Source of the DNA: Curtobacterium sp. VKM Ac-1395
Lineage (GTDB): Bacteria; Actinomycetota; Actinomycetes; Actinomycetales; Microbacteriaceae
DNA length: 64,000 nucleotides
Direction: 5' to 3'
NCBI RefSeq assembly: GCF_015350975.1
Contig: NZ_JADKRX010000001.1
Span: 434,001 to 498,000, forward strand
The first letter of the stretch is position 1. Each line of letters starts with the position of its first letter. The position numbers were made by a program, and so were the translations under genes. The notes beneath the pieces are model-generated. The model was not told the origin of the DNA. It did not search any database and saw only the letters and a list, made by a program, of their open reading frames with translations. Below, piece by piece: positions 35,721-52,700 of this stretch.

Positions 35721-35746
35721 CCCAGCGGCACGCTGCCGGACGGGCG

Positions 35747-35791: not shown

Positions 35792-35837
35792 ATCCCGACC
35801 AGCCCCGTGCGGGGCATGACCCCTCCTGGAGGACCCC

Positions 35838-37250
35838 GTGTCCCAGACCATCCCAGACGACACCATCGACCACGGCGCGCACGCCGCGTTCCGCGAGGCA
35901 GTGGAGACACTCGACGCGACCCTCGACGGTGCCGCGCTCACCCCGGAGGACGCCGGCTACCCGGCCGCGTGCGCCGGGTACAACCTCGCCGGCCAGCGAC
36001 ACCCGGACGTCGTGGTGACCGCGCACAGCGCGAGCGACGTCGTCGAGGCAGTGTCCTTCGCCGCCGCGCACGGCCTGCCCGTCGCCGTCGTCGCGACCGG
36101 CCACCACGGCACACGCCCGCTCCGGGGCGGACTGCTCGTCGCGACCGCGGCGATGAACGAGGTGCACGTCGACGCTGCCGCTCGACGAGCCGTGGTCGCC
36201 GCCGGCGCACGGTGGAGCGACGTCGTGTCCCGCACTGCGGCGCACCACCTCGCGCCGGTCCACGGCTCGTCCGGGCAGGTGGGCGCGGTCGGCTTCACGT
36301 TGGGCGGCGGGCTGAGCCCCGTGCTGGGGCGCAAGTACGGGTGGGGGTCCGACCACGTCGTCTCGCTCGACGTCGTGACGGCCTCGGGCGAGCTGGTGCG
36401 CGCGTCTGCCGAGGACGACGCGGACCTGTTCTGGGCCCTGCGCGGTGGACGGAGCAACCTCGGCATCGTCACGTCGATGGAGATCGAGCTGTTCCCGGTC
36501 GAGCGGTTCATCGGCGGCGGCCTCTTCTACGACGGCGAGCACGCCGCTGCGGTCCTGGACGCCTTCGCCACGGCGACGGCGACCGCCCCGGACGACCTCA
36601 CACTGTCGCTCGCGTTCCTCCGCCTGCCTCCGGTGCCCGGGATCCCACCGCTGCTCGCCGGGCGCTTCGTCCTCCACCTGCGGGTGGCGCACCTCGGGGA
36701 CGCCGCCGGTGCCGACGCACTGCTCGCGCCGCTCCGTGCCGCCGCTCCGGTCCTCCTCGACACGGTCGAGGAGACCAGGGTCGAGGACTTCGAACGGATC
36801 CACAACGACCCGGTCGATCCGGCCCCGTTCTCGGAGGAGACGGCGATGCTCGCCGACCTCGACCCATCCGCGCAGCGCACGCTGCTGGACGTCGTCGGAC
36901 CGTCGACCGACACCGGTCTCCACATCGTCGAGCTGCGGCACCTCGGCGGAGCCTTCGACGTCACCCGCCCCGGTGCCGGCGCGATCGTCGCACCGTCCGC
37001 CTCCTACGTGCTCTGGGCGCTCTCGATCGGCATGCCCGAGTCCGACGCACAGGGGATCGCGCAGGCCCGGGCGCTCGTCGAGGCCATGCGGCCGTCCAGC
37101 ACCGGGACGCGGTACCTGAACTTCGCGCCCGACGACGGGCACCCCGAGCGGTCGTTCTCCGACGGCGACTGGGACCGGTTGCTCAGCGTGAAGGCGGCCG
37201 TCGACCCCCGGAACCTCTTCCGCACGCAGCAGCCGCTCATCGAGTCCTGA
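35838..37250 (+). CDS. FAD-linked oxidase of the berberine-bridge (BBE) type
   Basis: A 470-aa flavin oxidase. The PCMH-type FAD domain has VVATGHHGTRP, whose His (89/90) is placed for 8-alpha-histidyl FAD, and HGSSGQVGAVGFTLGGG (about 142-158). In bicovalent members a Cys occupies the position held here by Ser145, so the flavin is probably attached once. The C-terminal BBE motif YLNFAPDDG...DPRNLFRTQQ is complete. Such enzymes oxidise sugars, alcohols or ring-closing precursors in natural-product pathways. A phased TCGAC operator precedes it. Confidence 0.92.
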   Translation: MSQTIPDDTIDHGAHAAFREAVETLDATLDGAALTPEDAGYPAACAGYNLAGQRHPDVVVTAHSASDVVEAVSFAAAHGLPVAVVATGHHGTRPLRGGLLVATAAMNEVHVDAAARRAVVAAGARWSDVVSRTAAHHLAPVHGSSGQVGAVGFTLGGGLSPVLGRKYGWGSDHVVSLDVVTASGELVRASAEDDADLFWALRGGRSNLGIVTSMEIELFPVERFIGGGLFYDGEHAAAVLDAFATATATAPDDLTLSLAFLRLPPVPGIPPLLAGRFVLHLRVAHLGDAAGADALLAPLRAAAPVLLDTVEETRVEDFERIHNDPVDPAPFSEETAMLADLDPSAQRTLLDVVGPSTDTGLHIVELRHLGGAFDVTRPGAGAIVAPSASYVLWALSIGMPESDAQGIAQARALVEAMRPSSTGTRYLNFAPDDGHPERSFSDGDWDRLLSVKAAVDPRNLFRTQQPLIES

Positions 37251-37289
37251 CCATCCGACCCGGGCTCGGGTGCCCGCGTGCGCTCGAGC

Positions 37290-37862
37290 TCAGCGCGCCC
37301 GCGTGCAGACCACGAGGCGGAGTGCGGACGTTCCGAGGGCGGCGAGCAGGACGGTGACGGCGCCCAGCTGACGAGCCAGCCCACGCATCCGTGGTCCCCG
37401 TGACCCGTCCGACGCGATCGCCCGGATCGCCTGCCCGACCTCGGCCGCCGATCGCACCACGACACCGGCGCCGACGGAGGCGAGTGCCTCGCCGACAGCG
37501 ACCTGTGCGTCACTCGCGGGGAAGACCACGACGGGGACCCGGTGCTGTGCGGCAGCGAGGGCGGTGAGCGCGTCGCCGGACACGACGGCGACGTCCACGC
37601 CCTCGAGCAGTTCCGGGAGCGCCTCGTCCACCGCGTAGACGAGGTTCCGCGACGGCTCGGTCGCCGGTGTCCTCGAGCCCGCACTGAGTTGGACCACGGT
37701 GTTCGCCTGCGATGCCCCGACGGAGGCGAGCACGGCGTCGAGCATCGCCGGATGACAGTCGGGGAGCGCCACGAGCACGTTCCACCGGTACTCCCAACCG
37801 TCGGTCAGCGGGTTCGTCCAGCGGTGCCGGCCCTCGTTCCCACTCGCGTGCTGCGCATGCAT
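37290..37862 (-). CDS. Orphan C-terminal half of a GT-B glycosyltransferase, or degenerate gene
   Basis: The 190-aa frame resembles only the nucleotide-sugar half of a GT1 enzyme: an early ANTVVQLSAGS segment, then LPELLEGVDVAVVSGDALTALAAAQHRVPVVVFPASDAQ and VGAGVVVRSAAEVGQAI. The conserved HGG is replaced by VSGD, and no acceptor-binding half exists upstream in any frame. It ends with one hydrophobic helix. It may be a remnant of a transferase gene or a non-catalytic partner of the transferase at 34072. The ATG at 37862 is the best available start. Confidence 0.55.
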   Translation of the reverse strand: MHAQHASGNEGRHRWTNPLTDGWEYRWNVLVALPDCHPAMLDAVLASVGASQANTVVQLSAGSRTPATEPSRNLVYAVDEALPELLEGVDVAVVSGDALTALAAAQHRVPVVVFPASDAQVAVGEALASVGAGVVVRSAAEVGQAIRAIASDGSRGPRMRGLARQLGAVTVLLAALGTSALRLVVCTRAR

Positions 37863-38082
37863 CGCACCATGCTGCGGATCGGGGTCCACGGGGCGCGTCC
37901 GTGCAACCACTGAACGGACCGCGCACCCGCGGGACCCGTGACGACCCGGAAGTACCGCGATGGAACGATCAACCTGCGGGGGGACCGGCGTCATCCGCAC
38001 GGCCGTCGAACCTGTCCGGCCGCGAGCGCACGCTGGTCTCGACGGACGCCGCGGGGCGTCCGACGTCACCGAAGGAGACACC

Positions 38083-38346
38083 ATGTCCACGCTCGACCAG
38101 CACACCGCAGCCCCGACCCCCACCGATCGCCTCAACACCCTGTCGATCGTCGGGTTCGTGCTGGCGTTCGTCGCGAACATCGTCGGCCTGGTGGTGTCGG
38201 TCATCGCGCTCGTCCAGATCGGCCGCACCGGCGAGCGGGGCCGAGGCCTGGCGATCGCGGGCATCGTCGTCGGCGGGTTCTGGTTCGTGGTCTTCGGTGG
38301 TGCGCTCCTGCTGCACGCGATCGTCGTGAGCACGCACGGCGCGTGA
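38083..38346 (+). CDS. DUF4190-like two-helix membrane protein
   Basis: The 87-aa product has a short Thr/Pro-rich head and two helices (about 20-45 and 56-80). These carry the typical LSIVGFVLAFVANIVGLVVSVIALVQI and GRGLAIAGIVVGGF pattern of DUF4190 proteins. GAAGGAG precedes the ATG. Function is unknown. A short GC hairpin (38043-38062) lies in its leader. Confidence 0.78.
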   Translation: MSTLDQHTAAPTPTDRLNTLSIVGFVLAFVANIVGLVVSVIALVQIGRTGERGRGLAIAGIVVGGFWFVVFGGALLLHAIVVSTHGA

Positions 38347-38409
38347 GGCGCGGGGATCGGCGGGGCGGAGGGGTCTCGTCGACCCGGGTACGCCCGGGAG
38401 GATGACGTC

Positions 38410-38877
38410 CTACGACAGGTCGAGGAGCCGCAGGACGTACCCGTCGGGGACGGTGCCGCTGTCGCCGATGTAGTGGAAGAAGAGGTCGGTGGCCTCGTCG
38501 GCGTCGAACACCTCTGCCGGGTGCACGGCGTGGTCGGTGCCGGCGACGTTGACGGCCTCGGTGAGGGGCTCGCCGAGGTCGTGCGGGCGCCCCACGACGT
38601 AGTGGCGCAGCTCGCCGTCCTCGACGCGCTGCAGCTCCACGCTCATGCGCTCGGCGCTGCCGCCGGCCTGCAGGTAGCGGCTGTTCCAGTCCTCGTTCGA
38701 GTACCCCGGACCGTCGGGCCAGCCAGCCTCGTCGGGGACGAACCAGAGCTGGTAGGCGAAGCGGCCGTCGCTCGTGCCGTCGAGCAGGCCGAGCATGCGC
38801 CGGATCTGGTCGCGGTGGGAGCGGAACGCGTTCGACAGCTTCGAGGTGCTGGCGCTGTTCACCGTGTGGACGAACAC
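38410..38877 (-). CDS. Candidate immunity protein, second copy
   Basis: The 155-aa acidic cytoplasmic protein has no recognised domain. From EDWNSRYLQ onward (about 93 residues) it differs from the preceding gene's product at three positions only, while the first 60 residues have diverged strongly. It starts at a GTG 19 bases after that gene's stop. Small acidic proteins encoded right after a secreted toxin are usually cognate immunity factors. The divergent head could neutralise a different toxin variant. Confidence 0.6.
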   Translation of the reverse strand: MFVHTVNSASTSKLSNAFRSHRDQIRRMLGLLDGTSDGRFAYQLWFVPDEAGWPDGPGYSNEDWNSRYLQAGGSAERMSVELQRVEDGELRHYVVGRPHDLGEPLTEAVNVAGTDHAVHPAEVFDADEATDLFFHYIGDSGTVPDGYVLRLLDLS

Positions 38878-38896
38878 GAGACGGCCGACCCGAGTC

Positions 38897-39358
38897 CTAC
38901 GACAGGTCGAGGAGCCGCAGGACGTACCCGTCGGGGACGGTGCCGCTGTCGCCGACGTAGTGGAAGAAGAGGTCGGTCGCTTCGTCGGCGTCGAACACCT
39001 CTGCCGGGTGGACGAGGTGGTCGGTACCCGCGACGTTGACGGCCTCGGTGAGGGGCTCGCCGAGGTCGTGCGGGCGCCCGACGACCCAGTGGCGCAGCTC
39101 GCCGTCCTCGACGCGCTGCAGCTCCACGCTCATGCGCTCGGCGCTGCCGCCGGCCTGCAGGTACCGGCTGTTCCAGTCCTCGTCGTCGTAGCCGGGCGCG
39201 TCGGGCCACCCGGCGCTGTCCGGGACGAACCAGAGCTGGTACGACCAGTCCTCGTCGTTGTCGAGCTGCCCGAGGTTGAAGCGGATCTGGTCGCGGAACG
39301 GCCGGATGCTGTCGATGAGCGGCATGCTCGACTCGGCGTTGGTGGTCATGATGAACAT
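38897..39358 (-). CDS. Candidate immunity protein, first copy
   Basis: The 153-aa acidic protein (YQLWFVPDSAGWPDAPGYDDED, then VELQRVEDGELRHWVVGRPHDLGEP) matches no family I know. Its ATG lies 5 nt after the toxin stop, so it should be translated together with the toxin, as expected for a protein that must block the toxin at once. An internal ATG three codons later is an alternative. It is tandemly duplicated in the next gene. Confidence 0.65.
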   Translation of the reverse strand: MFIMTTNAESSMPLIDSIRPFRDQIRFNLGQLDNDEDWSYQLWFVPDSAGWPDAPGYDDEDWNSRYLQAGGSAERMSVELQRVEDGELRHWVVGRPHDLGEPLTEAVNVAGTDHLVHPAEVFDADEATDLFFHYVGDSGTVPDGYVLRLLDLS

Positions 39359-39363
39359 CGGTG

Positions 39364-40785
39364 TCAGGGTACTTTCCGCTCGATGAACTCGGTGATCTTG
39401 ATGACCTTGCCGTTGAGCGTGGCGGAGGCCGGGTTCTCGGGGCTGATGGCCGCGTCGAACTCCCGCTGCGCAGGGGAGCGGACGGCGGTGCCGCTCTTGA
39501 TCTCGACGCCGATGTAGGTGCCGTCGGCCTTCTGCACCAAGCCGTCGTAGATGCGACCGTTCGGCACGCCGTCGACGGTGGCCTTGACCTTGGTGGTGTC
39601 GACCGTGGTCCCGAGCTGCTTCTCGACCTGCTTCAGGCCGTCGGCTTCCTTCTGCGCGGCGTCGACGCGGGCGGAGTCGTTGTTCTCCGACCGGTACGTC
39701 CCGTCGTTGTTCCGCCCCGGGTGCTGCTCGTTCGGCTCCTTGGCGTTCCTGGCGCGTTCGGCGTTGTCCGTCCGGTACGGGGTGCTCCGGTCGTCGGTCG
39801 CCGCGTGCACGCCGAGCCCGATGGCACCGGTGCCGGCGAGGGCGGCGCCGGCGGCGATGACGCCCGCACCGGAGACGTTCAGCGCGACACCCGCAGGGGC
39901 ACCGACGACGGTCAGGTCGAGGGCGACCCCGCCGCCCTCCATCGCGGTCCCGAGGGCCATGGTCGCCAGGCCGCCGAGGAGCTCGAGGACCTCGTCGGGG
40001 TGGTTCACCATCGCGTTCCCGAGGGAGGCGAAGACGTTGCCGGCGGTGGCTGCGGCGTCCTGCAGGTACGGGAGCCCGGCGGTGGCCTGCGCGCCCGCGA
40101 TCGTGACACCGAGCTCGGTGACGGTCTTGACCGTGTGCCAGGCGTCCTCGAACCAGTTGTCGTCGCCGCCACCGACCTGCGTGCTGGCGGCCGACGCGGT
40201 GGTGCTGACGGCGTGGGCGTCGACCGTCGACGGCGTGATCCCGTCGAGCTCGGTCGCGACGGCGTCGAGGGTCGCGGTGACGTCGTCGTTGTGGGCCTGC
40301 ACGCGCATCCGCAGCCCGAGTTCCTCGGTGACCAGCGCGGGGACCTGCTGCCAGTTGCTGACGACGGCCCCGACCGCGCCGAGGAGGTCCCCGGAGGACG
40401 CAGCCTTCGCGGCTTCGGCGGCGACCTGCCCGGGGGCCGAGGCGTGGAAGGCGTCGATCTGCCGCACGAGTGCGTCGTGGGCCAGGCCGAGTTCCTCGAT
40501 GCGGCTGGCGGCGCGGGTCGCGACCCGGAGGAACGCGTCCCCGGCGCTCTGCAGGTGCCTGGCCTTGTCGACCGCTGGCGCCATCAGCGGCGTCAGCGCC
40601 GGCTGCAGGGCGTCCGAGGTGAAGACGGCGGGGAGCCCGGACCAGGACCGCGACGCGGCGGTCGCGGCGGACAGGACGCCGTCGGTGGCGGTGGCGAACC
40701 GCTGGGCGGCCGAACGGAGCGCGGCGGCGTCGTCGGTGACGTCCGTGACGTCGGCGGCGGTCAGCGCGCCGGCGAGGACGCTCAC
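39364..40785 (-). CDS. Secreted polymorphic toxin with PD-(D/E)XK-like nuclease C-terminus
   Basis: The 473-aa protein has an N-terminal helical region (about 1-210) like LXG/WXG type VII secretion substrates, with a WSG turn at about 48-50. A hydrophobic, Ala/Gly-rich middle (about 225-325) could span or enter a membrane, and a charged linker (RTDNAERARNAKEPNEQHPGRN) marks the toxin junction. The C-terminal domain holds IYDGL (Asp414), GVEIKSG (Glu428, Lys430) and SPAQREFD (Gln440), the layout of a PD-(D/E)XK nuclease. The GTG start overlaps its small partner by 4 nt. Two immunity candidates follow. Confidence 0.75.
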   Translation of the reverse strand: MSVLAGALTAADVTDVTDDAAALRSAAQRFATATDGVLSAATAASRSWSGLPAVFTSDALQPALTPLMAPAVDKARHLQSAGDAFLRVATRAASRIEELGLAHDALVRQIDAFHASAPGQVAAEAAKAASSGDLLGAVGAVVSNWQQVPALVTEELGLRMRVQAHNDDVTATLDAVATELDGITPSTVDAHAVSTTASAASTQVGGGDDNWFEDAWHTVKTVTELGVTIAGAQATAGLPYLQDAAATAGNVFASLGNAMVNHPDEVLELLGGLATMALGTAMEGGGVALDLTVVGAPAGVALNVSGAGVIAAGAALAGTGAIGLGVHAATDDRSTPYRTDNAERARNAKEPNEQHPGRNNDGTYRSENNDSARVDAAQKEADGLKQVEKQLGTTVDTTKVKATVDGVPNGRIYDGLVQKADGTYIGVEIKSGTAVRSPAQREFDAAISPENPASATLNGKVIKITEFIERKVP

Positions 40786-41087
40786 CGGCCCATGCCGCTG
40801 ACGTCGGCAGCGAGGTGGCTGTCGGTCGCGGTGATCGCGTCGTGCGCCGTGGTGAGCGACGCCGCGAGGCTCGTCATGCGGACACCGATGTCGTCGCTGC
40901 GCCCACGGAAGCGGCCGGCGAGCCGTCCGAGGGCACCGCTCAGCTGTGGCGAGGTGGCGGCGGCGACAGCCGTGCTCAGCGCGGCGTCGGCGGCGGCCGC
41001 CTGCTGCCCGGCACTCCCGCCGTGGACGTTCAGGTCGCCGACCAGCGACGACAGCCCGCTCGCATCGACCCGTAGTTCCCCAGCCAT
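40782..41087 (-). CDS. WXG100-like small helical partner of the toxin
   Basis: A 101-aa all-helical protein of ESAT-6-like size, encoded directly before the toxin with a 4-nt overlap. The Trp-x-Gly turn itself is absent, so it belongs to a divergent WXG/DUF-type chaperone group. In type VII toxin operons such proteins pair with the toxin's N-terminal helices for export. GGGGGG serves as ribosome site. No EssC/EccC secretion ATPase is in this window. Confidence 0.65.
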   Translation of the reverse strand: MAGELRVDASGLSSLVGDLNVHGGSAGQQAAAADAALSTAVAAATSPQLSGALGRLAGRFRGRSDDIGVRMTSLAASLTTAHDAITATDSHLAADVSGMGR

Positions 41088-41188
41088 GGTCCCCCCGATG
41101 ATCCCCGACAGCGTGGTGCAGCAGCCACCCTAGGGCGGCTGCGGCCGTCGCGCACCTCCGGCGTCGCCGGTGGCGGTGGTCAGCACTG

Positions 41189-41235
41189 CCGGACGGGAGG
41201 CTCGGTGGCGGTCGCGGGGCGAGCCTCCCGTCCGG
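41189..41235. terminator. Terminator hairpin of the GGACGGGAGGC family
   Basis: CCGGACGGGAGGCTCG (41189-41204) pairs perfectly with CGAGCCTCCCGTCCGG (41220-41235). It lies after the DUF4232 gene (ends 41248, minus) and upstream of the toxin operon. Confidence 0.75.
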
Positions 41236-41247
41236 TGGGTGGTGGCG

Positions 41248-41988
41248 TCAGAACGACGCGAGCGCGCTCGTGCTGAGCTGGTGGACCGCCGGCGCAGCGC
41301 AGGACTCGAACAGCGCCCCGGTGGCGGGCACGAAGAGCGACTGGCGCGACCCCGGCGGGATCACGCGGAAGCCGTCGGTCACGCGCGGGTGGCACGTGGC
41401 GGAGTCCCAGTCGCCGGCGTCCCTGACGGTCACGACCGCCTGGACCTCACCGGACGGGCGGAGGGTGAGGGTCTGGTGCGGCGTCGAGCGGTCGAGTGTC
41501 GCCGCGTTGCCGATCTGGGTTCCGTTGCCGCCCCCGACGAAGGAGACGCCGGGCCAGCCCTGCAGGGTGCAGGACCGCGCGCCGGTGTTGCGCAGGATGA
41601 TCGCGACCCTTGTGGCGCCCGCGCTGCTGCCACCGCCGTCCGCGACCGACCCGGTGAGCTGGGAGGTGGCGCACCGTGTGCTCGCCGTGTCGCCGGAGGT
41701 GGTGCTGGCGGGTGCGGGAGCGGCGGCCGTCCCGGAGCCGCGGGAGGGCGCCGGGGCCGCGGCTCCGGCAGCGGTGGACGGCGTCGCGGCGGCGGGCGTG
41801 GACCTGCTCGGAGCGGTGGTGGGGCCGGTGGTGGGACTGGCGGACGTCGAGGTGCCGGTCGAGGCCCCGGTCGACGGGTGGGCGGCGGTCGCGGCTCCGG
41901 TGCCGCCGCCGGAGCAGGCGGTCAGCAGGAGCGCCATCGCGGTGACGCCGATGATCGGCAGGATGGTCCGTACGCGTGCTGTGGTCAT
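41248..41988 (-). CDS. DUF4232 lipoprotein
   Basis: A 246-aa exported lipoprotein: signal peptide with lipobox LLLTAC (Cys about residue 24), a long Thr/Ser/Pro/Ala tether (to about 100), and a DUF4232 beta-sandwich domain (about 105-246, STRCATSQLTGSV, NTGARSCTLQGWPGVSFV, CHPRVTDGF). DUF4232 domains are common on actinobacterial surfaces; no activity is established. The ATG at 41988 lies 23-62 bases after a 40-bp element shared with the gene at 44484, which points to common control by the adjacent two-component system. Confidence 0.85.
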   Translation of the reverse strand: MTTARVRTILPIIGVTAMALLLTACSGGGTGAATAAHPSTGASTGTSTSASPTTGPTTAPSRSTPAAATPSTAAGAAAPAPSRGSGTAAAPAPASTTSGDTASTRCATSQLTGSVADGGGSSAGATRVAIILRNTGARSCTLQGWPGVSFVGGGNGTQIGNAATLDRSTPHQTLTLRPSGEVQAVVTVRDAGDWDSATCHPRVTDGFRVIPPGSRQSLFVPATGALFESCAAPAVHQLSTSALASF

Positions 41989-42010
41989 GGGACCAGCGTG
42001 CGTCCGGGAC

Positions 42011-42050
42011 GTGGCTCGGCTGCGGCAGGCGTGTGTCAGTCCGGTGACAG
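42011..42050 (-). promoter_or_regulatory. Candidate response-regulator site, copy 1 (overlaps kinase 3' end)
   Basis: On the minus strand CTGTCACCGGACTGACACAC holds two TGTCAC-like elements 11 bp apart, followed by CGCCTGCCGC and CGAGCCACG. About 36 of 40 bases match 44528-44567. The first bases are also the last codons (LSPD and stop) of the kinase gene. It lies just upstream of the DUF4232 lipoprotein gene. Confidence 0.65.
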
Positions 42051-43295
42051 GGCGCGGTCGAAGGCCAGGCTCGCGCTCGCGCCCCGGTCGGTGTTGCGGA
42101 GCACGAGCCGCGCTCCCGTGGCGTCGGCGTGGTGCAGGGCGATCGCGAGGCCGATCCCGGTGCCGCCGGCGGTGCCGAGCGCGCCGAACCGCCGAGGTCC
42201 CTCCGCGAGGAGCGCCTCGGGGAACCCCGGCCCGCGGTCGGTGACGCGGACCTCGGTGCCGTCGACGACCACCTCGACGTCGCCGTCGCCGTGGCGCTCC
42301 GCGTTGCCGACCAGGTTCGTCAGGGCACGTGCCAGTCGGTCGGGGTCGAGCCCGACGGTGGCGTCCGCGAGCACTCGGACCGGGACGTGGCTCGACGGGG
42401 AGTCGGCGAGCACCCGTTCGACGGACCGCGCGAGGGACCGTGGCCGGACGTCGGAGGCCGGGGCGTCGTGCTGCGCGCGGGCGAGCCGGAGGAGGTCGTC
42501 GACCAGGTCGCGCAGCCGCCGCACGAGTCGTCGGATGCGGTCGGCGTCCTCGTCGTCCCCGAGCAGCGCGGCTGCGCTGCTGAGCGCCGTGAGGGGGGTC
42601 TTCAGGTCGTGGGCGACGTCGGCGCTGACGGCGCGCTCCTGTTCGAGCCGGACGGCGAGCGCGGCTGCGGTGTCCGCGATGCCGCGGGACAGCACGCCCA
42701 CCTCGTCGTCCTCGGCGGTCGGGCGGTCCGCCTGCCGACCCGCGATGGCGTCGTTGACGGTGCTGGCGGTGACGCGGAGACGACGGGTGAGCCGTCCGGC
42801 GACGAACCAGGACACCAGCGCGGCGATCAGCGCGGCACCGGCGCCGCTCACCGCGAAGGTGCGGACCAGGTCGGCCCACTGCTGTCGGACCGGTGCGCCG
42901 GAGACGCGCGTCGCGAGCAGGTCGGCGCCCTCGCCCCGGGCGGCCCACATCGAGGTGCCGTCGTCGTACGTCACGACGGCACGTGCGTCCAACGCCCCGC
43001 GGAGCTCCGCGGGCAGTGCGGCGGGGTCGCGGGTGGCGCGCGACGGCAGGGTGCCGCCGAACGCGTCGGTCGCGGCGATCTCGCGGAGCTGGGCGGTGGC
43101 CTGCGTGCGGAGCTGGTCGCGGGCACCCGTGATGGACGTGTGCGCGAAGACCGCCCCGGCGGCGAGGACGAGGGTGAGGGCGAGCAGGGCCATGGCGGCG
43201 GCGGTCCTGACCCGGAGCGAGCGGTGCCAGGGCACGTGCGTGGTGATGACCGGGCGCGGGGCCGTCGTCCCCGGCGTCGAGCTCCAGGTCGTCAC
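42036..43295 (-). CDS. Sensor histidine kinase
   Basis: The 419-aa kinase has TM1 (about 32-52), a sensor region of about 95 residues, TM2 (about 147-167), HAMP, H-box SADVAHDLKTPLTAL (His229), N-box LTNLVGNAERHGDG, G1 TDRGPGFP and G2 GGTGIGLAIA. The GTG at 43295 overlaps the response-regulator stop (GTGA). The H-box form AHDLKTP is common in actinobacterial stress kinases. The stimulus is unknown. It is flanked by two exported-protein genes with a shared promoter element. Confidence 0.92.
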   Translation of the reverse strand: MTTWSSTPGTTAPRPVITTHVPWHRSLRVRTAAAMALLALTLVLAAGAVFAHTSITGARDQLRTQATAQLREIAATDAFGGTLPSRATRDPAALPAELRGALDARAVVTYDDGTSMWAARGEGADLLATRVSGAPVRQQWADLVRTFAVSGAGAALIAALVSWFVAGRLTRRLRVTASTVNDAIAGRQADRPTAEDDEVGVLSRGIADTAAALAVRLEQERAVSADVAHDLKTPLTALSSAAALLGDDEDADRIRRLVRRLRDLVDDLLRLARAQHDAPASDVRPRSLARSVERVLADSPSSHVPVRVLADATVGLDPDRLARALTNLVGNAERHGDGDVEVVVDGTEVRVTDRGPGFPEALLAEGPRRFGALGTAGGTGIGLAIALHHADATGARLVLRNTDRGASASLAFDRALSPD

Positions 43296-43972
43296 GGGCC
43301 GGCCGCCGCGACCCGGTAGCCGAAGCCGCGGACCGTCTCGACGACGTCGACCCCGAGCTTCCGGCGGAGGCGCTGCACGTTCGTGTCCACGATCCGCGGG
43401 TCCTGCCACGTGGAGCCCCACACGATCGCGACCACCTGCTCGCGTGACAGCACGGCACCGCGGTTCGCGAGGAGGGCCTGCAGGACGCGGAACTCCGTCG
43501 CGCTGAGCGTGATCGGGGTCGCACCGCGCAGCACCCGCTTGGCGTCGTGCTCGACGACCAGGGCGCCGAGCCGTTCCGTCCGTGCCGGTCGTGCGCCGGT
43601 GCGACGGAGGACGGCGGTGAGCCGGGCCGCGAGGACGTCGGGGTCGAACGGCTTCGTGACGTAGTCGTCCGCGCCGGCGTGCAGACCGCCGGCGATGTCG
43701 GTGGGCAGGTCCCTGGCCGTGAGGAACACCACGGGGACGGCCAGCTCGGCGAGTTCCCGGGCGAGCGCGATGCCGTCCATCCGCGGCATGGCGACGTCGA
43801 CCAGGGCGATGTCGGGCAGGGCGGCCCGGGCGAGGTCCAGTGCGACGACGCCGTCACGGGCCTCCTGCACGCGGAACCCCCGTCGGAGGAGCAGCAGGCG
43901 CGTGGTCTCGCGGACGTCGTCGTCGTCCTCGGCGAGGAGCACCATCGCGCCGCCGTCGCCCGGGTCGGTCAC
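43292..43972 (-). CDS. OmpR/PhoB-family response regulator
   Basis: The 226-aa regulator has a receiver domain (LLAEDDDD, phospho-acceptor Asp59 in LVDVAMPRMDG, Lys in YVTKPF) and a winged-helix domain (LSATEFRVLQALLANRGAVLSREQ, IVDTNVQRLRRKLG, VRGFGYR). Its GTG overlaps the stop of the upstream exported-protein gene by 4 nt, so sensor target, regulator and kinase form one transcript. The 11-bp-phased TGTCAC repeats at 42011-42050 and 44528-44567 are its likely binding sites. Confidence 0.92.
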   Translation of the reverse strand: MTDPGDGGAMVLLAEDDDDVRETTRLLLLRRGFRVQEARDGVVALDLARAALPDIALVDVAMPRMDGIALARELAELAVPVVFLTARDLPTDIAGGLHAGADDYVTKPFDPDVLAARLTAVLRRTGARPARTERLGALVVEHDAKRVLRGATPITLSATEFRVLQALLANRGAVLSREQVVAIVWGSTWQDPRIVDTNVQRLRRKLGVDVVETVRGFGYRVAAAGP

Positions 43973-44484
43973 GAGAGCACCTGGTCGGTGACGAACCCCT
44001 GGTCGCTCCAGCGGAACGACATCGTCGGACGGCTGGCCCACGCGGGGCGGCCGTTCGCGAAGGTGATCCGGAGGCGCTCGTACCGGGTGGTGCCGGCGAC
44101 GTCGACCCGGTCGTGGAAGGCGACCGCGACCGCGTACCGGTGCAGCTCCCCGCTCGCGCAGTCGCAGGGGTTGTCGACGAAGCTGCCGACGCCGCGGGAC
44201 GTCTGCCCGCCCCACGAGGACCAGGTGAGGTCCTGCAGCACCTGGTCGGTCGACGCGCACCAGATCGGGATCGTGAGCGGCGAGGAGACGGCCTCGCGCC
44301 CACACCCGGCGAAGTACGCACTGGTGGCGGTCGTGGTCGTCGACACGGGCGTGCCGTCCTGGAGCGGGGCGCCGAGCGCGCTCATGCTCAGCGACGCTGC
44401 CACACAGGTCACGATCGCGGTGGCGACGGCAGCGGCGGTCGCGGTGATCCCGGTGCGGCGGGGGAGTCGGGCGGTTCTCAGCAT
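43969..44484 (-). CDS. Exported protein of unknown function
   Basis: The 171-aa protein has a signal peptide (basic LRTARLPRRT, then AAAVATAIVTCVAASLSMSALGAP) and a mature domain with four or five cysteines (FAGCGREA, IPIWCAST, NPCDCASG) that may form disulfides. I recognise no family. AGGAGG precedes the ATG. It is coupled to the response-regulator gene by GTGA overlap and has the 40-bp promoter element upstream, so it may be part of the signalling unit. Confidence 0.72.
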   Translation of the reverse strand: MLRTARLPRRTGITATAAAVATAIVTCVAASLSMSALGAPLQDGTPVSTTTTATSAYFAGCGREAVSSPLTIPIWCASTDQVLQDLTWSSWGGQTSRGVGSFVDNPCDCASGELHRYAVAVAFHDRVDVAGTTRYERLRITFANGRPAWASRPTMSFRWSDQGFVTDQVLS

Positions 44485-44527
44485 GGGGTCCTCCTGGTCC
44501 GGATGTCCATGAGTCTCCGGCGTCGGC

Positions 44528-44567
44528 GTGGCTCGACCGCGGCAGGCGTGTGACAGTCCGGTGACAG
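44528..44567 (-). promoter_or_regulatory. Candidate response-regulator site, copy 2
   Basis: On the minus strand CTGTCACCGGACTGTCACAC is a clean direct repeat of CTGTCAC with an 11-bp period, followed by CGCCTGCCGC and CGAGCCACG as in copy 1. It lies 44-83 bases ahead of the exported-protein gene that starts the two-component operon, fitting autoregulation. Confidence 0.7.
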
Positions 44568-44710
44568 CGTGAGCCGCGCGGGGCCGCGGGCGTCCGTGCC
44601 GTCGGTGCCATCCTGCCGGTACGACCGTCACGTCGTCGACACCGTGGCTCCGTAGGTTCGCCGACATCGGGAGCGGACACCCAGTCGTGCCCCACCAGGA
44701 GGAGGACCCC

Positions 44711-45382
44711 ATGGAACGGACGAGGACCACGGCGGGGGCCGTCGTCGCGGCGGTGCTGGTCGTGTCCGGCCTGCTCGCGGGCTGCGCGCAGTCGCCGGTC
44801 GAGACCGAGCCGGCGACGGGAGCCGGTGGCGCGGGGCCGTCTCGCACGGCCTCGTCGAGCGCGGAGCCGTCGTCGAGCACGGGGTCGTCATCGAGCACGG
44901 CGCCGTCCTCGACCTCGGCCACGGGCTCGGCGTCGCCCGCGGTCTTCCCGCCGGGACAACCGCCACGACCCGGCGAGCAGAGCCCGCTGCCGTGGACGGA
45001 CACCGTCCCCGGGCTCACCGAGGCCGTCCGCGCCGCCGACCACCCGGGGCTGCAGATCTGCGGCGACGACGTCAGGTCCGTGGTCATCAGCGCGAGTGAC
45101 CTGCGCGGCATCGGGACGACACAGTGGCTCGTCGACAGCACCTGCGACGGTGCGACGGCGACCTCACCCGACGAGGTGTCGATCTACGAGACGAGGGGGG
45201 CCGAGATCGTCAGGACGGACGTCGTCTACGAGTTCACCGCCAACCGGCCCCGGCTCACCGCGTCGCCGTACCTGTTCGGCCCGCACACGGTCGTGCTGAC
45301 GTTCGACGGGGGCGCGTCCTACCGCCTCGTCGCGATCCAGCCGCACGCCGTCGTGCCCGGTCTCGTTGCGCGGTTCTCGTGA
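44711..45382 (+). CDS. Lipoprotein of unknown function
   Basis: The 223-aa protein has a lipoprotein signal (VVSGLLAGC, Cys about residue 25), a Ser/Thr/Pro-rich tether (to about 90), and a beta-rich domain starting PGLTEAVRAADHPGLQICGDD with two further cysteines (ICGDD, STCDG). No family is recognised. GGAGGAGG precedes the ATG. It is divergent from the two-component operon and translationally coupled to a 55-aa membrane protein. Confidence 0.75.
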   Translation: MERTRTTAGAVVAAVLVVSGLLAGCAQSPVETEPATGAGGAGPSRTASSSAEPSSSTGSSSSTAPSSTSATGSASPAVFPPGQPPRPGEQSPLPWTDTVPGLTEAVRAADHPGLQICGDDVRSVVISASDLRGIGTTQWLVDSTCDGATATSPDEVSIYETRGAEIVRTDVVYEFTANRPRLTASPYLFGPHTVVLTFDGGASYRLVAIQPHAVVPGLVARFS

Positions 45383-45546
45383 ACGGGGACGGGTGGACCG
45401 GCCAGGTCGGACCGTACGGCGCTCGTCGGGCCGGCGAGGTCGACGCGGACGAGGTGCCGCAGGACGACGTCGTCGTCGCGGTGATCTGCAGCGCGATGGC
45501 GTTGACGATGTCCGGGCTCGTCGTGCTGCTGTTCCTCTGGCGCTGA
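45379..45546 (+). CDS. 55-aa single-pass membrane protein
   Basis: The frame starts at a GTG overlapping the lipoprotein stop (GTGA). It has an acidic first half (EVDADEVPQDD) and one C-terminal helix (VVVAVICSAMALTMSGLVVLLFL) ending WR. The coupling and a proper helix support a real small protein, perhaps a partner of the lipoprotein. It ends 12 bp from the convergent ABC operon. Confidence 0.6.
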   Translation: MNGDGWTGQVGPYGARRAGEVDADEVPQDDVVVAVICSAMALTMSGLVVLLFLWR

Positions 45547-45558
45547 CGGCAGCTGCCC

Positions 45559-46221
45559 TCAGCGCTCGATGTCGACGACCCGCGTCGCCCGGTCGAGGAA
45601 CGCGTCGTCCGACGTGGTGACCACCGCGGCGAGCCCGGTGTCGTGCACGAGGCCGGCGACCAGGTCGACGATCCCCGCGGCGGTCGCGCTGTCCAGCTGT
45701 GCCGTCGGTTCGTCGGCGAGCAGGAGTCCCGGTCGACCGACGACCGCTCGGGCGATGCCGACCCGCTGCTGCTGACCGCCGGAGAGCTCCTCGGGGCGCT
45801 GGTGCTCGTGTCCGGTCAGGCCGACGAGCGCGAGCGCCTCGGCCACCATCGCGTCCCGCTCGGCCGGCTCGGTGCGCCGGATGCGGAGCGGCACCTCGAC
45901 GTTCTCGGCCGCGGTCAGCACGGGCAGGAGCGAGAAGTCCTGGAAGACGATCGCCAGGCGGTCGCGGCGGAGTGCGCGGAGCTCGTCCTCGCTCCGGTCG
46001 GCCAGGGTCGTCCCGTCGACGGCGACCGTGCCGCGGTCCGGACGCTCGAGGCCGGCGAGCAGCCGCAGCAGCGAGGTCTTGCCGGACCCCGAGGCGCCGC
46101 GGACGACCACGAGTTCGCCGCGGTCCGCCCGCAGGTCCACGTCGTGCACGACCCGGAGCGGGCCGGCCGCGGTGGTCACGTCCCATCCGAGCCCGGAGGC
46201 CTCGAGCACGGGGCCGCTCAC
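45559..46221 (-). CDS. ABC transporter ATP-binding protein (LolD/MacB type)
   Basis: A 220-aa ATPase: Walker A GASGSGKTS (about 40-48), Q-loop FQDFSLLP, signature LSGGQQQR, Walker B LLLADEPT and switch His replaced in the final VVTTSDD (no canonical His). It pairs with FtsX-like permeases in MacB-type exporters. It is the last gene of a four-gene operon in which every junction is a 4-nt overlap. Loss of the switch His suggests that the partner ATPase may carry the intact catalytic site. Confidence 0.9.
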   Translation of the reverse strand: MSGPVLEASGLGWDVTTAAGPLRVVHDVDLRADRGELVVVRGASGSGKTSLLRLLAGLERPDRGTVAVDGTTLADRSEDELRALRRDRLAIVFQDFSLLPVLTAAENVEVPLRIRRTEPAERDAMVAEALALVGLTGHEHQRPEELSGGQQQRVGIARAVVGRPGLLLADEPTAQLDSATAAGIVDLVAGLVHDTGLAAVVTTSDDAFLDRATRVVDIER

Positions 46222-47084
46222 CGGTCCACCTCGTCGTCGCCGCGGCGCAGGACGACGTGGTCGTCCTGCAGGCTGAGCCGGACGCGGTCGCGCAGCCCGA
46301 GCGCCAGCTGGAAGGACTCGGGCAGCTGCAGGCGCCCCGCCTCGTCGATCACGGCGAACTCCTCTCCCGGGCTGTTCCCGAGGTCGTCGCGGATGGTCTC
46401 GGTCGAGGTGCGTCCGTCCCGGATCCGGACCGTCCGTCGCACCTGTTCGGCGACGGTCTGGTCGTGGGTGACGATGAGGACGGTGACGCCCTCGTGCTCG
46501 TTCACCGCCCGCATCGTCGCGAGCACGGCCCGGGCGGCGGCACGGTCGAGCGCACCCGTCGGCTCGTCGGCGAGCAGGACCCGCGGGCGGTTGGCCAGGG
46601 CCACGGCGATCGCGGCGAGCTGCTGCACACCACCGGGCAACGCCCCGGGCAGCTCGTGACCGTGGTCGCCGATGCCCACGAGGTCGAGCACCTCGCGGAC
46701 CCGTTCGTCACGCTGACGGCCGCGCACGCCCGCGACCGTGAGGACCGCTGCGACGTTCTCGCTGACCGTGAGGTACGGCACGAGGTTGCGCGCGGTCTGC
46801 TGCCAGACGAAGCCGACGCTGTGACGGTGGAAGCGGGTGCGACCGCGACGGTCGAGTGACCCGAGGTCGACGTCCGCCACGACGGCCTGCCCGGCCGAGG
46901 GGGCGTCGAGCCCGGAGAGGATCCCGAGCAGCGTCGACTTGCCGCTGCCCGAGGCACCGACGAGCGCGACCATCTCGCCCGCTCGGACCGTCAGGGTCAG
47001 GCCCTGGAGCGCCTGCACCTCGACGTCGCGGGACCGGTAGATCCGCACGAGGTCGCGGCAGACGATGTCGGGGGTGGTGCTCAT
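46218..47084 (-). CDS. ABC transporter ATP-binding protein
   Basis: The 288-aa ATPase has Walker A GASGSGKST (about 38-46), Q-loop WQQTARNL, a signature region reading LPGGVQQLAAIA instead of LSGGQ, Walker B VLLADEPTGALD and H-loop IVTHDQ. The degenerate signature beside an intact H-loop complements the other ATPase, which has a perfect LSGGQ but no H-loop. This hints at an asymmetric heterodimer. About 55 extra C-terminal residues (LPESFQLALGLRDRVRLSLQDDHVVL) resemble an AbrB-like swapped-hairpin tail. Confidence 0.88.
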   Translation of the reverse strand: MSTTPDIVCRDLVRIYRSRDVEVQALQGLTLTVRAGEMVALVGASGSGKSTLLGILSGLDAPSAGQAVVADVDLGSLDRRGRTRFHRHSVGFVWQQTARNLVPYLTVSENVAAVLTVAGVRGRQRDERVREVLDLVGIGDHGHELPGALPGGVQQLAAIAVALANRPRVLLADEPTGALDRAAARAVLATMRAVNEHEGVTVLIVTHDQTVAEQVRRTVRIRDGRTSTETIRDDLGNSPGEEFAVIDEAGRLQLPESFQLALGLRDRVRLSLQDDHVVLRRGDDEVDR

Positions 47085-49732
47085 CGGTTCCTCCTGGTCG
47101 GGCGGTGGTGCGCGGGGGCGCCGGCGCGGACGGTCAGGACGAGGACGCCCGTGAGCGCCACGAGCAGTCCACCGGCCACCCCGGCGAGCAGCCCGGGGTC
47201 GACCGAGACCACCGGTCGGACGACGGCTCCGGTGAACGAGCGCAGGTCAGCCGAGGGCAGCGTGGTCGCGACGACCCCGACGGCCACGGCGGTCCCCGTG
47301 ACCAGTGCGGCCACGAGGAGCGGGAGCGTCTCGGCCACGACGACGGCCCGCGCGTCACCCGGGGTCGTGCCGAACACCCCGAGCAGGCGGGTCCGAGCCC
47401 GACGCGACGACCCCGCCGTCACCCCCGCGACGACCAGCGTGCCGAGGCCGAGCGCACCACCGAGCACTGCTGCCGAGACCGCGACCGCACGTGTGCCCGG
47501 GACGCGCGGGTCGGCGTCGATGGACCGAGCCACCCCGACGGCCGTGTCGACGTCCCCGGACGGCACCAGGCGTCGCACGGCCGCGGCGACGCGGTCGGGT
47601 GATGCGCCGTCGGCCGTCCGGACGAGCACCCGGTCGACGCTGCCGGTCTCGGTGAGGGCCTCTGCGGTGCGGGTGTCGACGAGCACCCAGCGCTTCGCGA
47701 GGGTGAACGGGACCGCGTCCGGGGCGGTCGCCACCACGCGCGTGTCCGTCCCGAGGACGCTGGAGTCCCGCCCGGTGGCCTCGGCGAGCGACCGCGACGC
47801 GACGAGGGGCACACGCTCGCCCCGGGTCGTCCGGAGTGCCGCCGGTGCGGGGAGCGCTCCTGGGACGTCCCGCTGCACGGCGGCGAGTCGGTCCGCGTCG
47901 GCGACGAGGACCACGGCCTGGACGGCGCCGTCCGGGGTGTCGAAGGACACCTCGTCCGTGGTGGAGACACCGACCGCGGCAGCGACGCCGGGGACGCGGG
48001 CGACGCGGGCGACCTGGTCGGGGTCGAGGGCCACCGACGACACGGCGACGTCCGCCGCGACGCTCCGGCGGGCCGCCTGGGCGACCCCGTCCTCGAGCGT
48101 GCTGCCGACGACGGTCGCGAACAGGGCCACGGCGATGCCGATCACGGCGACGACGAGCGGGACGGCCTGCGCGACGGCGGAGCGCGCGGCGGTCACGACC
48201 CCGACGAGCATCGCGACGCCACGGCGACGTCGGGCGACGGCGACGAGCCGTCCGAGCACGACGGGCAGCAGGCGCAGGACGACCACGACGCCGGACCCGG
48301 CGAGCAGCAGCGGCAGCACCGCGGCCAGGGGGTCCACCGAGCCGCCGGGCGCGCTCGTCGTGACGCCGCTCCTGGTCGTGACGACGACCGCCGCCACGGT
48401 CGCGACGAGCACGGCGGCCTCGACGACCGGTCGGACGGCGCGACGACGTGCTCCGACCTGCACCGTGCGCGCGAGGACCGCCGCCGCGGCGCACGGCACG
48501 ACGGCGGCGAGCAGCGCAGCGACCATGGCCTGCAGCGGGGCGGGCACCGACCCACCCAGCGGCGTCAGCTGCACGAGGACCGCGAGGACCCCGCCCGCAG
48601 CGGCACCCGGGACCGCGGCGACGGCGACGAGCCCGGCGGCGACCGAGCGGACCACACGGTCGGAGGCGCCGCGCGCTCCCAGCAGCCGCAGGCCGGCCTC
48701 GGCACGGTCGAGCACGAGTCGGGCGAGCAGTGCACCGAGTGCGACGAGCGCACCGGCCGGCCCGGAGCCGAGTGCCGCCGCGAGCGTGCCGACCGTGGCG
48801 TCGCGGGCCACGGAGGCGTCGAGCAGCCCCGGCAGGCCCGTCGAGAAGGCCACCGACCCGGCCGCCGTGCTCGGCAGGGGCTGTCGGGTGGCGAGGAACC
48901 GACCGACGGCGTCCACCAGGCCCGGGCGTCCGGACGCGGTGACGGTGTCCGTGCGGACCGGGAACCACGCGTGGCCCTGGGTGGTGCGGCCGTCGTCGGC
49001 GACGTGGCCGAAGGACCCCGCCGCGGCGAACGCCGTGGCCGACACCGTCGTGCCGCCGTCACCGGTCCCCGCGGTCGCCGGCCGGAGCGTCGTGGGCACG
49101 TGTCCCCACGTCGGGTCGTGCCGGTCGAGCGGCCGGTAGACACCCACGAGCTCGAGCGACAGTTCGCCGGCGACGGTCCGGACCTGGCCCACCCGCCACC
49201 CGACGGCCGCGGCGACGGCGGGGGAGACGGCGACCTCGACCGTGGCGGAGTCCCGCGCCGGTCGTGGCGCCCGGCCCTCGGTGAAGCGCACCACGTCGGC
49301 GAACGCGGGGTCGGTCGCGACGGACACCGACGCCGGGACCTTCGACGGCAGTGCGTCGAGCCCCAGGTACCCGGTGGCCGCGTACCAGCCCGCTCGTCCG
49401 GTGGCGGTGCGCAGTGCTCCGGGCATCGACCGGTGCACCGCGTCGAGGTCGTCGCCGAGCCCGTCGAACACGGTCTGCGCCGTCGCGGGTGGTTCGGCGT
49501 CCCCGGCGACGACGGCGAAGGTCGCCTGCAGGTCCCGGTCGGTCGCGGTCGCCCGGTCGAGGTCGGCTCGGGTGCCGGCCGTCGCCAGCGCGCCGAGGAC
49601 CGACAGCACGGACCCGGCCAGCAGTGCGGCGAGCAGGGTCACGACCGCGATGGCCACGAGGGGTGCGCGGTGCTCCGCGACGATTCTCCCGAGGGGGGCG
49701 CCAGGACGTCGACGGGTGTGCCGGCCGCTCAT
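47081..49732 (-). CDS. FtsX-like ABC transporter permease
   Basis: An 883-aa permease: TM near the N-terminus (about 25-50), a large extracytoplasmic MacB-like domain (about 55-290), a cluster of helices (about 300-510), a second extracytoplasmic domain (about 530-740) and three C-terminal helices. This is the duplicated FtsX arrangement of MacB-type exporters that move peptides or lipids. The ATG overlaps the stop of the upstream permease (ATGA). Long open frames on the opposite strand are shadows of its Ala/Val/Arg-rich codons. Confidence 0.85.
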   Translation of the reverse strand: MSGRHTRRRPGAPLGRIVAEHRAPLVAIAVVTLLAALLAGSVLSVLGALATAGTRADLDRATATDRDLQATFAVVAGDAEPPATAQTVFDGLGDDLDAVHRSMPGALRTATGRAGWYAATGYLGLDALPSKVPASVSVATDPAFADVVRFTEGRAPRPARDSATVEVAVSPAVAAAVGWRVGQVRTVAGELSLELVGVYRPLDRHDPTWGHVPTTLRPATAGTGDGGTTVSATAFAAAGSFGHVADDGRTTQGHAWFPVRTDTVTASGRPGLVDAVGRFLATRQPLPSTAAGSVAFSTGLPGLLDASVARDATVGTLAAALGSGPAGALVALGALLARLVLDRAEAGLRLLGARGASDRVVRSVAAGLVAVAAVPGAAAGGVLAVLVQLTPLGGSVPAPLQAMVAALLAAVVPCAAAAVLARTVQVGARRRAVRPVVEAAVLVATVAAVVVTTRSGVTTSAPGGSVDPLAAVLPLLLAGSGVVVVLRLLPVVLGRLVAVARRRRGVAMLVGVVTAARSAVAQAVPLVVAVIGIAVALFATVVGSTLEDGVAQAARRSVAADVAVSSVALDPDQVARVARVPGVAAAVGVSTTDEVSFDTPDGAVQAVVLVADADRLAAVQRDVPGALPAPAALRTTRGERVPLVASRSLAEATGRDSSVLGTDTRVVATAPDAVPFTLAKRWVLVDTRTAEALTETGSVDRVLVRTADGASPDRVAAAVRRLVPSGDVDTAVGVARSIDADPRVPGTRAVAVSAAVLGGALGLGTLVVAGVTAGSSRRARTRLLGVFGTTPGDARAVVVAETLPLLVAALVTGTAVAVGVVATTLPSADLRSFTGAVVRPVVSVDPGLLAGVAGGLLVALTGVLVLTVRAGAPAHHRPTRRNR

Positions 49733-52700
49733 CGGTGTCCTCCCTCGGCCACGGCTCTGCGGGTCCGGCGGCCGGCGACGGCTGCCAGCAGGCCGGCCCC
49801 CGCCAGGACGACGACGGGCACGAGGAAGGTGCCGGCGGAGACCACGACGGGATCGGCCGTGACCAGGCCGGTCGCACCGGGGACGGCGGCGATCGCGAAC
49901 GGTGCGGCGACCGTCGCGACCGTCACGCCCCCGCCGACGAGCCCGCCGAGCGTGGCAGCGACGACCGGGGCGACGAGCTCCGCGACGCGGGCCCGTCCGG
50001 CTGCAGCGGGGGAGACGCCGAGCGCTCGGGAGGTCGCGGAGCGCTGCGGGTCGGCACTGCTGACGACACCCCCGACGAACGCCAGGAGCGCCAGCAGGGT
50101 GCCGAACGCCGCCACCCCCGCGAGGGCCCCCACCGCCGGGGCGAGCACGGGCGTCGACGACACGGCGGCCCGGGTGCTCACGGACCCGGACACCGTCAGG
50201 TGCCGAGCGGCCTGCGCGGCGAGCGTCGTCGGGTCGGGGCCGGCGATCCAGGTCTCGTCGGCCCGCGGGACCGCGCCCGCCGTGCCGTCCACCGCCGGGC
50301 CGCCGAGGACGGACGCGTCGACGAGTGCCGGCAGGTCGGCGGCGACGGCGGTCGTGGAGGCGCTGCCCGGTACCCGCTCGACCACACCGGTGACCCGGGT
50401 GTGCAGGGTGCGCGCCGTCGACGCCGCGTCGAGGTCGAGCGGCGACCCGGGCCGCAGTCCGAGTTCCGCCGCGAGCGCGGTGGTGACCACGACGGGCAGC
50501 GTCCGCCCCGACGCCGCCGCTCCGAGGGGGATCCGGGTGGGACCACCGAGGTCTTCGAGCACGCGGTCCCCAGCCGCTGCCGGCACGTCGGCCACGGCGA
50601 CGCCGACCGTCACCCGGAGCCGCGCGGGTGCGATCCCTGCGTCGACGTCGGCGGGACGGCTGCTGAAGGTCAGGGTGGGGTCGACGGCGAGCAGTCGCCA
50701 CGTCGTCCCCCGTGCCCCGGCGGCGGTGGGGAGCACCGCGTGCAGGCGGCCGGTCTCCCCGAGCGCCACGTCGGCGCCGTCGTCGGCGGTGAGCGGCAGC
50801 TCGGCGGCCACCCCGTCCTGGTCCACCACCCAGAGCGCGGACCGGACCGCGCCGCGTGCGTCGGACCTGGGCGTGCCGTCGAGCGTGGCCTGCCCGACGC
50901 GCACGGTGACCTCGACACGGCGGGTGCCGGCGGGCAGCGCGGTGCCCGCTCGGCCCGGCACGTCGACGTCCCGGAACGCTGCGGCACCCGCGCGTCCGAG
51001 CACGCCCGTCGCCGCGGCCGCCGGCATGGCCACGAGGGGGACGCGGCGGTCACCCGCGGTCACCTCGTCGGTGAGCACGGGCGTCGAGACGGTGTCCCGC
51101 CCGGAGACCCCTGCCGTCGGCGCGACGACCGTGGCCCCGTCCTCCACGGCGTCGTCACCGTCGGCGGTCACCCGCACCGCGGGTCCGACGACGGCGGAGG
51201 CGGTCGCGCCGTCCACGGCCGAGGTCGTCGCCGCGAGTCCGGCCGCGAGCCCGCCCACCGCGACCGCCATCGCGACGAGCACGACTACCGGGGCCGTCGA
51301 CGCCCAGGTCCTGGCGAGCCGGCGCACGACGAGACCGGGCAGGAAACCGCGCCACCGCGGGACGGCGCGGGCGACGAGCGCAGCGACCACGCCCACGAGG
51401 ACGACCGTGACCAGCGCACTCGCGAACACCGTCACGACCGGTGACACGGCGGCGATCGGGTCGGTCTCCACCTGTCCGCGGACGCGGGAGACCGGCACGC
51501 CGACGGTGAAGAGCCGCCAGGTCGCGAACGCCGCTGCCGCCACCACGGCGACGGTCAGCACGACCGCGACCCAGGTGCCGGTGGCTCCGACGGACGACGT
51601 CCGCCGCGCGGCGACGACACCGGCGGTGGCCACCGCGACGACGACCGCGATGACGGGTGTCAGGACGCCGACCCACACGGTCGGTGTGGCTCCGTGCCCG
51701 AGGAGACCGGCGAGGACGACCGCCACGACGGCGCCGACCACGGCTCCGGCACCTGCCACCACCAGGGTCTCCAGGCAGGTCCAGCGGACGAGCTGGGCGC
51801 GGGTCGCGCCGCGTGCGGTGAAGAGCGCGTCCTCGCGGGACCGCGCGTCGCGCAGGAGCACGAACAGCACGCTGACGGCGACGACGCCGAGGACCGCGGC
51901 GACCGCGACGCCGATCCGGACGAGGGCGCGGGCGGTCGCGATGCCGACATCGATCCGCGCCAGCGTCGCGGGGAGGGTGCCGGACACGTCCGCGCCCGCC
52001 AGCGCACCGGTGTCGCCGGAGGTCGCCGCGGTGACCGCGCTCAGTCCTCGACGCAGCCCGTCCGGCGCGACGAGTCGCCCCCGGTCGGTGGTCGGCGTGG
52101 TGGTCCAGGTCGCCGTGGCCGTGCCCGGGACGTCCGCGATCGACCGCGCGGGCACGACGAAGGGGCCGGCCACGCCGTCGTCCGTGCCCGACCCGATGTC
52201 CGAGGCACCCGACCAGACCGCAGCGCCGGCGTCGTGCGCCCGCCACGTCGCCGCGACGCGGAGCACCAGGGCCGAGCGGGGGCCGACGGCGACCGTGTCG
52301 CCGACCCGGAGACCGAGTCGCTGCGCTGCGTCCGCCTGGACGGCGGTGGGCACCGGACCGCTCGTGGTGGGCTCGGCCGGCCACGTGCCCGAGACGACGT
52401 GGGCGACGGACGGGAGGCTCGGGACGGCGGCGATCCGGGCCTCCTGTCCGGCGCTCCCCGCGTCGACGGCCGTGGTCACCGACGCGGACCAGGTCACGTC
52501 CGCGCTGTCGGCGGGCAGCCGGTCCGCGATGGCTGCGCGCACCCGGCGGGCCTGAGTGGTGGGCGCGTCGCCGAGCTGTTCGGTGACGACGGTGGCCGCG
52601 GCGCGCGCCGGCTGGGCGGCGAGGACGGTGGCGGCGCCCGACTCGGCTCCCGCGTCACCGAGCCCGATCGCCAGGAGCGGCAGCGCGACGGCCGCTGCGA

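Follow-up and report, generated by a model that had tools for sequence, protein, structure and literature searches.

Two copies of a 40-bp element flank a two-component system of Curtobacterium sp. VKM Ac-1395, and the locus raises the question of which regulator binds them and which genes they control. The window analysed here is the whole 64,000-nucleotide stretch of DNA that contains them. We consider it highly likely that both elements are binding sites of the regulator encoded between them, which would activate the operon and the neighbouring DUF4232 gene in a PhoB-like manner. The best reading of the pair is that of PhoB-type activator promoters lacking a -35 element, which would make up the private regulon of an accessory system.

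The operon runs on the minus strand in the order EXP1, response regulator, kinase, with the DUF4232 gene next (Table 1). Both of its junctions overlap as GTGA, which joins the EXP1 stop to the regulator start and the regulator stop to the kinase start. The regulator scored above the Pfam cut-offs, with 90.1 bits against 30.2 for the receiver and 70.7 bits against 26.2 for Trans_reg_C. The kinase was 95-98% identical to that of three Curtobacterium sp. records. An initial, sequence-only reading of this DNA had claimed an exported-protein gene behind each element, and these are the genes of the DUF4232 lipoprotein and of the 171-aa EXP1, with export of both judged by eye from the lipobox and the N-terminal hydrophobic stretch. 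EXP1 is probably a secreted protein. It matched no family in Pfam or NCBIfam, and no convincing solved relative was found (best E 0.029, to designed proteins). Its structure model, of modest confidence (pLDDT 68.7), gave no significant fold match at E ≤ 0.001. The divergent lipoprotein-like gene is a conserved neighbour, which does not imply control by operator E.

Table 1 Features of the two-component locus, in window positions. Operators and -10-like elements are predicted.
Feature	Position	Strand	Remarks
DUF4232 lipoprotein	41248..41988	(-)	PF14016 7.7e-25; lipobox LLTAC by eye; ATG 41988
-10-like CACGCT of DUF4232	41995..42000	(-)	6 nt ahead of ATG; leaderless start predicted
Operator D, four 7-bp boxes	42011..42050	(-)	42050-42044, 42039-42033, 42028-42022, 42017-42011; precedes DUF4232
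Sensor histidine kinase	42036..43295	(-)	HisKA + HATPase_c domains
Response regulator, OmpR/PhoB type	43292..43972	(-)	receiver + winged helix; Pfam PF00072 1.3e-25, PF00486 1.1e-19
EXP1, 171 aa, first gene of the operon	43969..44484	(-)	N-terminal hydrophobic stretch; ATG 44484
-10-like GAGACT (pattern NANNNT) of EXP1	44512..44517	(-)	10 bp past box 4
Operator E, four 7-bp boxes	44528..44567	(-)	44567-44561, 44556-44550, 44545-44539, 44534-44528; precedes EXP1
Divergent lipoprotein-like gene	44711..45382	(+)	start codon by eye; Pfam family: none

About 36 shared bases had been claimed for the pair; the positions are exact and the count is 37 of 40. The second-best match to either 40-mer within the window was 24/40. 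Direct 40-bp pairs with at least 35 identities numbered 12 in the window, and eight of them, including the operator pair, reached at least 37. Of the other seven, five fell within a single pair of tandem genes at 38.4-39.1 kb; the inverted 40-bp pairs that were found were all at one place near 23.89 kb. In the genome scan that the sequence-only reading had suggested (3.9 Mb), the 14-mer CTGTCACCGGACTG was exact only at both operators, with three further places at one mismatch. The pattern CTGWCACN4CTGWCAC was likewise exact only at the two operators in the whole genome. With up to two mismatches it gave 49 matches, compared with 37 for a reversed-pattern control, so the weaker matches are mostly background, and a larger regulon built on them was rejected. 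No near match was found in plasmid records.

The CTGTCAC repeats had been noticed before at an 11-bp period. This period is real and goes further, because each operator consists of four 7-bp boxes with 4-bp spacers, two strong and two weak, which exactly fill the 40 bp. Direct repeats of about 7 bp at a period of 10-11 bp, as in OmpR/PhoB operators, are thus present. A box matrix was built on boxes 1 and 2, and its scores were averaged over 12 distinct operators. It scored 11.2 at offset 0 and 12.5 at offset 11, -1.4 at offset 22 and -2.7 at offset 33, and at most -8 at all other offsets from 0 to 61. Since offsets 22 and 33 stand out, boxes 3 and 4 are weak yet in register. Boxes 1 and 2 were best kept before the EXP1 orthologues and were the only ones well kept in the promoter of G040; the spacer is GC-rich.

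For the promoters, an ungapped alignment was made of 18 sequences (13 EXP1 and 5 DUF4232), which are related and not independent. A52 and T56 were invariant in all 18 and form a NANNNT element, which is separated from box 4 by 10 bp. The first base of this -10-like element was always C or G, never T, and the 10-bp spacing was fixed. No -35 element could be recognised; at the usual spacing, its position would be within the boxes. The start codon came exactly 6 nt past the -10 in 12 of the 18 promoters (7 EXP1, 5 DUF4232), so that the element starts 12 bp ahead of the start codon and leaderless mRNAs are predicted. A TANNNT about 12 bp ahead of the start codon is described as a mark of leaderless genes, common in Actinobacteria, in PMC3160421. 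Five promoters, including that of EXP1 in the window, have the start codon 27 nt past the -10, behind a Shine-Dalgarno-like sequence, and placement in G040 differs from both classes. Columns 19-57 of the alignment alone (boxes 3-4 and the -10 region) failed to single out the window sites in a matrix scan. Taken across genomes, the comparison shows each putative site as a four-box array of 11-bp period that is followed, at a constant distance of 10 bp, by a -10-like NANNNT.

Very probably, the sites allow the system to activate its own genes together with the gene of a neighbouring surface protein. An envelope signal would cause the kinase to phosphorylate the regulator, and tandem regulator dimers would occupy the boxes, which would substitute for a -35 element. 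The bound dimers would then recruit the housekeeping RNA polymerase, as in PhoB-like activation. The operon of secreted protein, regulator and kinase would be raised in positive autoregulation, and the DUF4232 lipoprotein would be raised separately, from a predicted leaderless mRNA. The direction of control is read from the promoter anatomy, and the role of the boxes as activating substitutes for a -35 element from the analogy with PhoB and PhoP. Alternatively, the regulator could bind both sites as a repressor, with phosphorylation relieving or strengthening the repression. The last box and the -10 are just 10 bp apart, so that a bound regulator adjoins the polymerase site, and PhoB can activate or repress depending on the position of its site, according to PMC10294691. 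However, the lack of a recognisable -35, a -10 that begins with a base other than T in every one of the 18 promoters and the fixed spacing are what an activator-dependent promoter is expected to show, and we regard repression as unlikely.

The regulator was found at E ≤ 1e-40 in 13 of 60 sampled genus genomes, with 90-100% identity in five, including the window's own, and 56-65% in eight that form a distant clade. EXP1 and the kinase were present at the loci of all 12 relatives, and the divergent lipoprotein-like gene at 11, the twelfth being interrupted by a contig end. The operator precedes the EXP1 operon in all 13 regulator-bearing genomes of the 60. Allowing up to one mismatch, CTGTSACNGRACTGWCAC was found in 13/13 regulator-bearing genomes and in 2/47 others; in G047, the match was the DUF4232 site, and the operon site has two mismatches. 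Both matches in non-bearing genomes had one mismatch, and none of the five locus proteins was within ~1.5 kb of them. Because this pattern had been derived from the bearing genomes, it is the absence from the others that carries the information; since most sites are also linked to the locus, it is in part a trivial result that operator and regulator occur together. An independent test used a 57-column matrix made solely from six distinct distant-clade promoters. It ranked the window's operators first and second (33.1 and 28.9), followed by 10.7, at a position overlapping operator D, and then 7.4. The recognition helix DPRIVDTNVQRLRRKL was nearly invariant in the 13 orthologous regulators. The earlier prediction that a single regulator would control the two surface proteins as well as itself has good support in this comparison of sequences.

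Searches for the locus were extended beyond the genus. The regulator (E ≤ 1e-50) occurred in 4 of 199 sampled family genomes, none of them outside Curtobacterium. EXP1 occurred in 5 of 249 family genomes at E ≤ 1e-5, one outside the genus, and its profile in 34 of 394 class genomes at E ≤ 1e-6, including the window's own. At 29 non-genus class loci (L096-L124, of the 34 matches), EXP1 was found again by tblastn in 26, and no regulator or kinase was found within ~1.5 kb (E ≤ 1e-4).

Comparison of DUF4232 genes gave the strongest evidence for assigning operator D to the promoter of DUF4232 instead of to the gene of the kinase. Close-type DUF4232 genes (at least 63% identity) occurred in 7 of the 60 genomes, all seven regulator-bearing. 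Four of these genes adjoin the kinase, with the operator. The gene in G047, although more than 50 kb away from the regulator, has kept the operator (23.5 bits); DNA similarity between G047 and the window spans this gene and stops at 42051, one base past the operator. In G052 and G056, both regulator-bearing, orthologues of 63-64% identity lie elsewhere in the genome without the operator (25 of 56 columns match), and retain the -10-like CACGCT and the 6-nt spacing. Distant DUF4232 paralogues reached at most 9.7 bits among 23 loci scanned for the operator. The comparison therefore places operator D, as a predicted site, with the DUF4232 gene behind it. The unlinked gene with the operator and the two orthologues without it are natural controls. 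Points that count against the proposed reading are these two orthologues, the failure of columns 19-57 by themselves, the reduced array of G040 and additional sites past the kinase in the distant clade.

The sequence-only reading had interpreted the copy at 42011 as reusing kinase codons. The overlap exists, in that operator D opens with 15 nt that also encode the end of the kinase (LSPD-stop), but as a meaningful feature it is incidental, since the operator lies past the kinase stop in two of the four linked genomes. The reuse is true in the window's genome and in G041, not in G013 and G029, where the kinase ends earlier and the operator follows 70 nt and 25 nt beyond the stop, respectively. 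A conserved device was rejected on this ground, and the DUF4232 operator of G047, more than 50 kb from the kinase, further disfavours it. The sequence-only reading was supported by comparison for operator/promoter elements linked to the local OmpR/PhoB-type regulator, and not for codon reuse.

To address the size of the regulon, a sequence profile was made from the 18 promoters and run against 60 whole genomes under stricter filters, by which weak sites may be missed. All 18 promoters were returned (E ≤ 3.6e-7), as they had to be by construction; what counts is the lack of further ones. A 19th strong match was a site beyond the kinase of G004 (7.9e-5). Below these 19, the best E was 0.0025, in a genome without the regulator, and other such matches also fell in genomes of this kind. 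The window's genome gave no further strong site in the profile search, its next match being at E 0.078, and its regulon appears to be just these two promoters. The best tandem candidate for a larger one, at C1:208259-208298 (L038 ~2260-2299), was left aside. It is a four-unit 11-bp array (CTCACAC, CTGACGC, CTGACAC, CCGACAG) between genes whose products resemble, by eye, a TetR-type regulator and an oxidoreductase. One weak match was common to G013 and G029. A tentative but quite possible extension is that of a minimal, mobile two-promoter regulon, in which the accessory system would activate only its own operon and one lipoprotein through often leaderless promoters without a -35, and the lipoprotein gene would move with its operator. 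If so, the two exported proteins would be the whole output of the system, perhaps feeding back on the kinase.

Operators of the PhoB/PhoP type have 7-bp direct repeats with a 4-bp spacer, several in tandem. According to PMC4832192 and PMC4415409, the E. coli pho box is CTGTCAT N4 CTGTCAT, the Streptomyces coelicolor PhoP motif is GTTCACC N4 GTTCACC, and Mycobacterium tuberculosis PhoP recognises TCACAGC repeats with a 4-bp spacer. The M. tuberculosis protein binds such 7+4 repeats as tandem dimers (PMC4832192). The window's operators share this arrangement, and their box is nearly identical to the E. coli box as given there. They differ in the GC-rich spacer, the predicted leaderless starts and the lack of further strong genome sites, and the regulator reached 163.3 bits against an NCBIfam cut-off of 296.2 for PhoB. 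The best NCBIfam models were CseB for the regulator and CseC for the kinase. CseA of Streptomyces is a lipoprotein. In PMC9739842, CseA-CseB-CseC has positive autoregulation and the gene order cseA-cseB-cseC, which resembles the order exported protein, regulator, kinase seen here. However, the scores are far below the curated cut-offs (209/350 bits for the regulator, 166.6/700 for the kinase), EXP1 matches no family, and immediately upstream there is no ECF sigma gene (sigE) but the divergent lipoprotein-like gene. The identities of the regulator as PhoB and of the system as CseABC were both rejected by the curated cut-offs. With a PhoB-type box and a regulator that is neither PhoB nor CseB, the system by analogy probably works like a PhoB-type activator circuit and is filed only as OmpR/PhoB-family. 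Literature searches found nothing linking DUF4232 with a two-component system, nor on DUF4232 alone. Judged by title, a search for Curtobacterium response regulator and histidine kinase gave no such system, and among the matches listed for CTGTCAC with regulator terms none dealt with the present one.

The likeness to the pho box would also fit sites of a different regulator, such as that of phosphate, with their placement around the system being incidental. This is improbable: under strict filters, and with pst genes not located, the two strong profile sites of the genome precede EXP1 and DUF4232 only, the element tracks the presence of the local regulator, and the unlinked DUF4232 copy with an operator occurs in a regulator-bearing genome. 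It is hardly credible that the identity is without function, either as a remnant of recent duplication or as a dispersed repeat, the latter named by the sequence-only reading: both promoters could share a duplicated ancestor within the window's clade, but the 30 bases ahead of the element show little conservation, whereas the element itself is kept from clade to clade, and the 14-mer, pattern and profile searches found no dispersed copies. Control by the local regulator would be a circuit of an ordinary and well-known kind, for which the support by comparison is unusually good. It is a compact case, with regulator, operator, promoter spacing and predicted start codon all readable from sequence, and it gives two exported proteins, both uncharacterised, a place in a defined signalling system.

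The surroundings of the locus may be variable. Window positions 37260-53065 are perhaps absent from the matching place in G052, where DNA 94.9% identical to 32852-37259 is followed by 20 bp and then by an 84-bp match (84.5%) to 53066-53149; the far end of the gap is defined by this 84-bp match alone, and G056 is not covered there. A variable segment would then contain the two-component system together with genes of an ABC transporter and a toxin-like cluster. In the cluster, near-identical tandem genes (38410-38877, 38897-39358) lie beside genes for a 473-aa (39364-40785) and a 101-aa (40782-41087) protein. Nothing convincing was found in Pfam for the proteins of 38410-41087, whose genes are arranged like those of a secreted polymorphic toxin and its duplicated immunity proteins.

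An extra site of 16.2-25.6 bits was found in seven of the eight distant-clade loci (L027-L033), which are related, on the strand of the kinase match and 251-430 bp beyond it; G040 and G047 had none. Scores of at least 16 occurred at only three of 365,062 background positions, including the window's two operators, and we infer that the third is a second copy of operator D from an overlapping fetch. The extra sites are near a small membrane-protein gene on the opposite strand, which by eye has its own TANNNT start signal, and the site in G010 precedes a DUF998 gene. In the window, positions 45442-45540, downstream of the divergent lipoprotein-like gene, encode a possible homologue of this membrane protein (44% over 34 residues, E 0.001).
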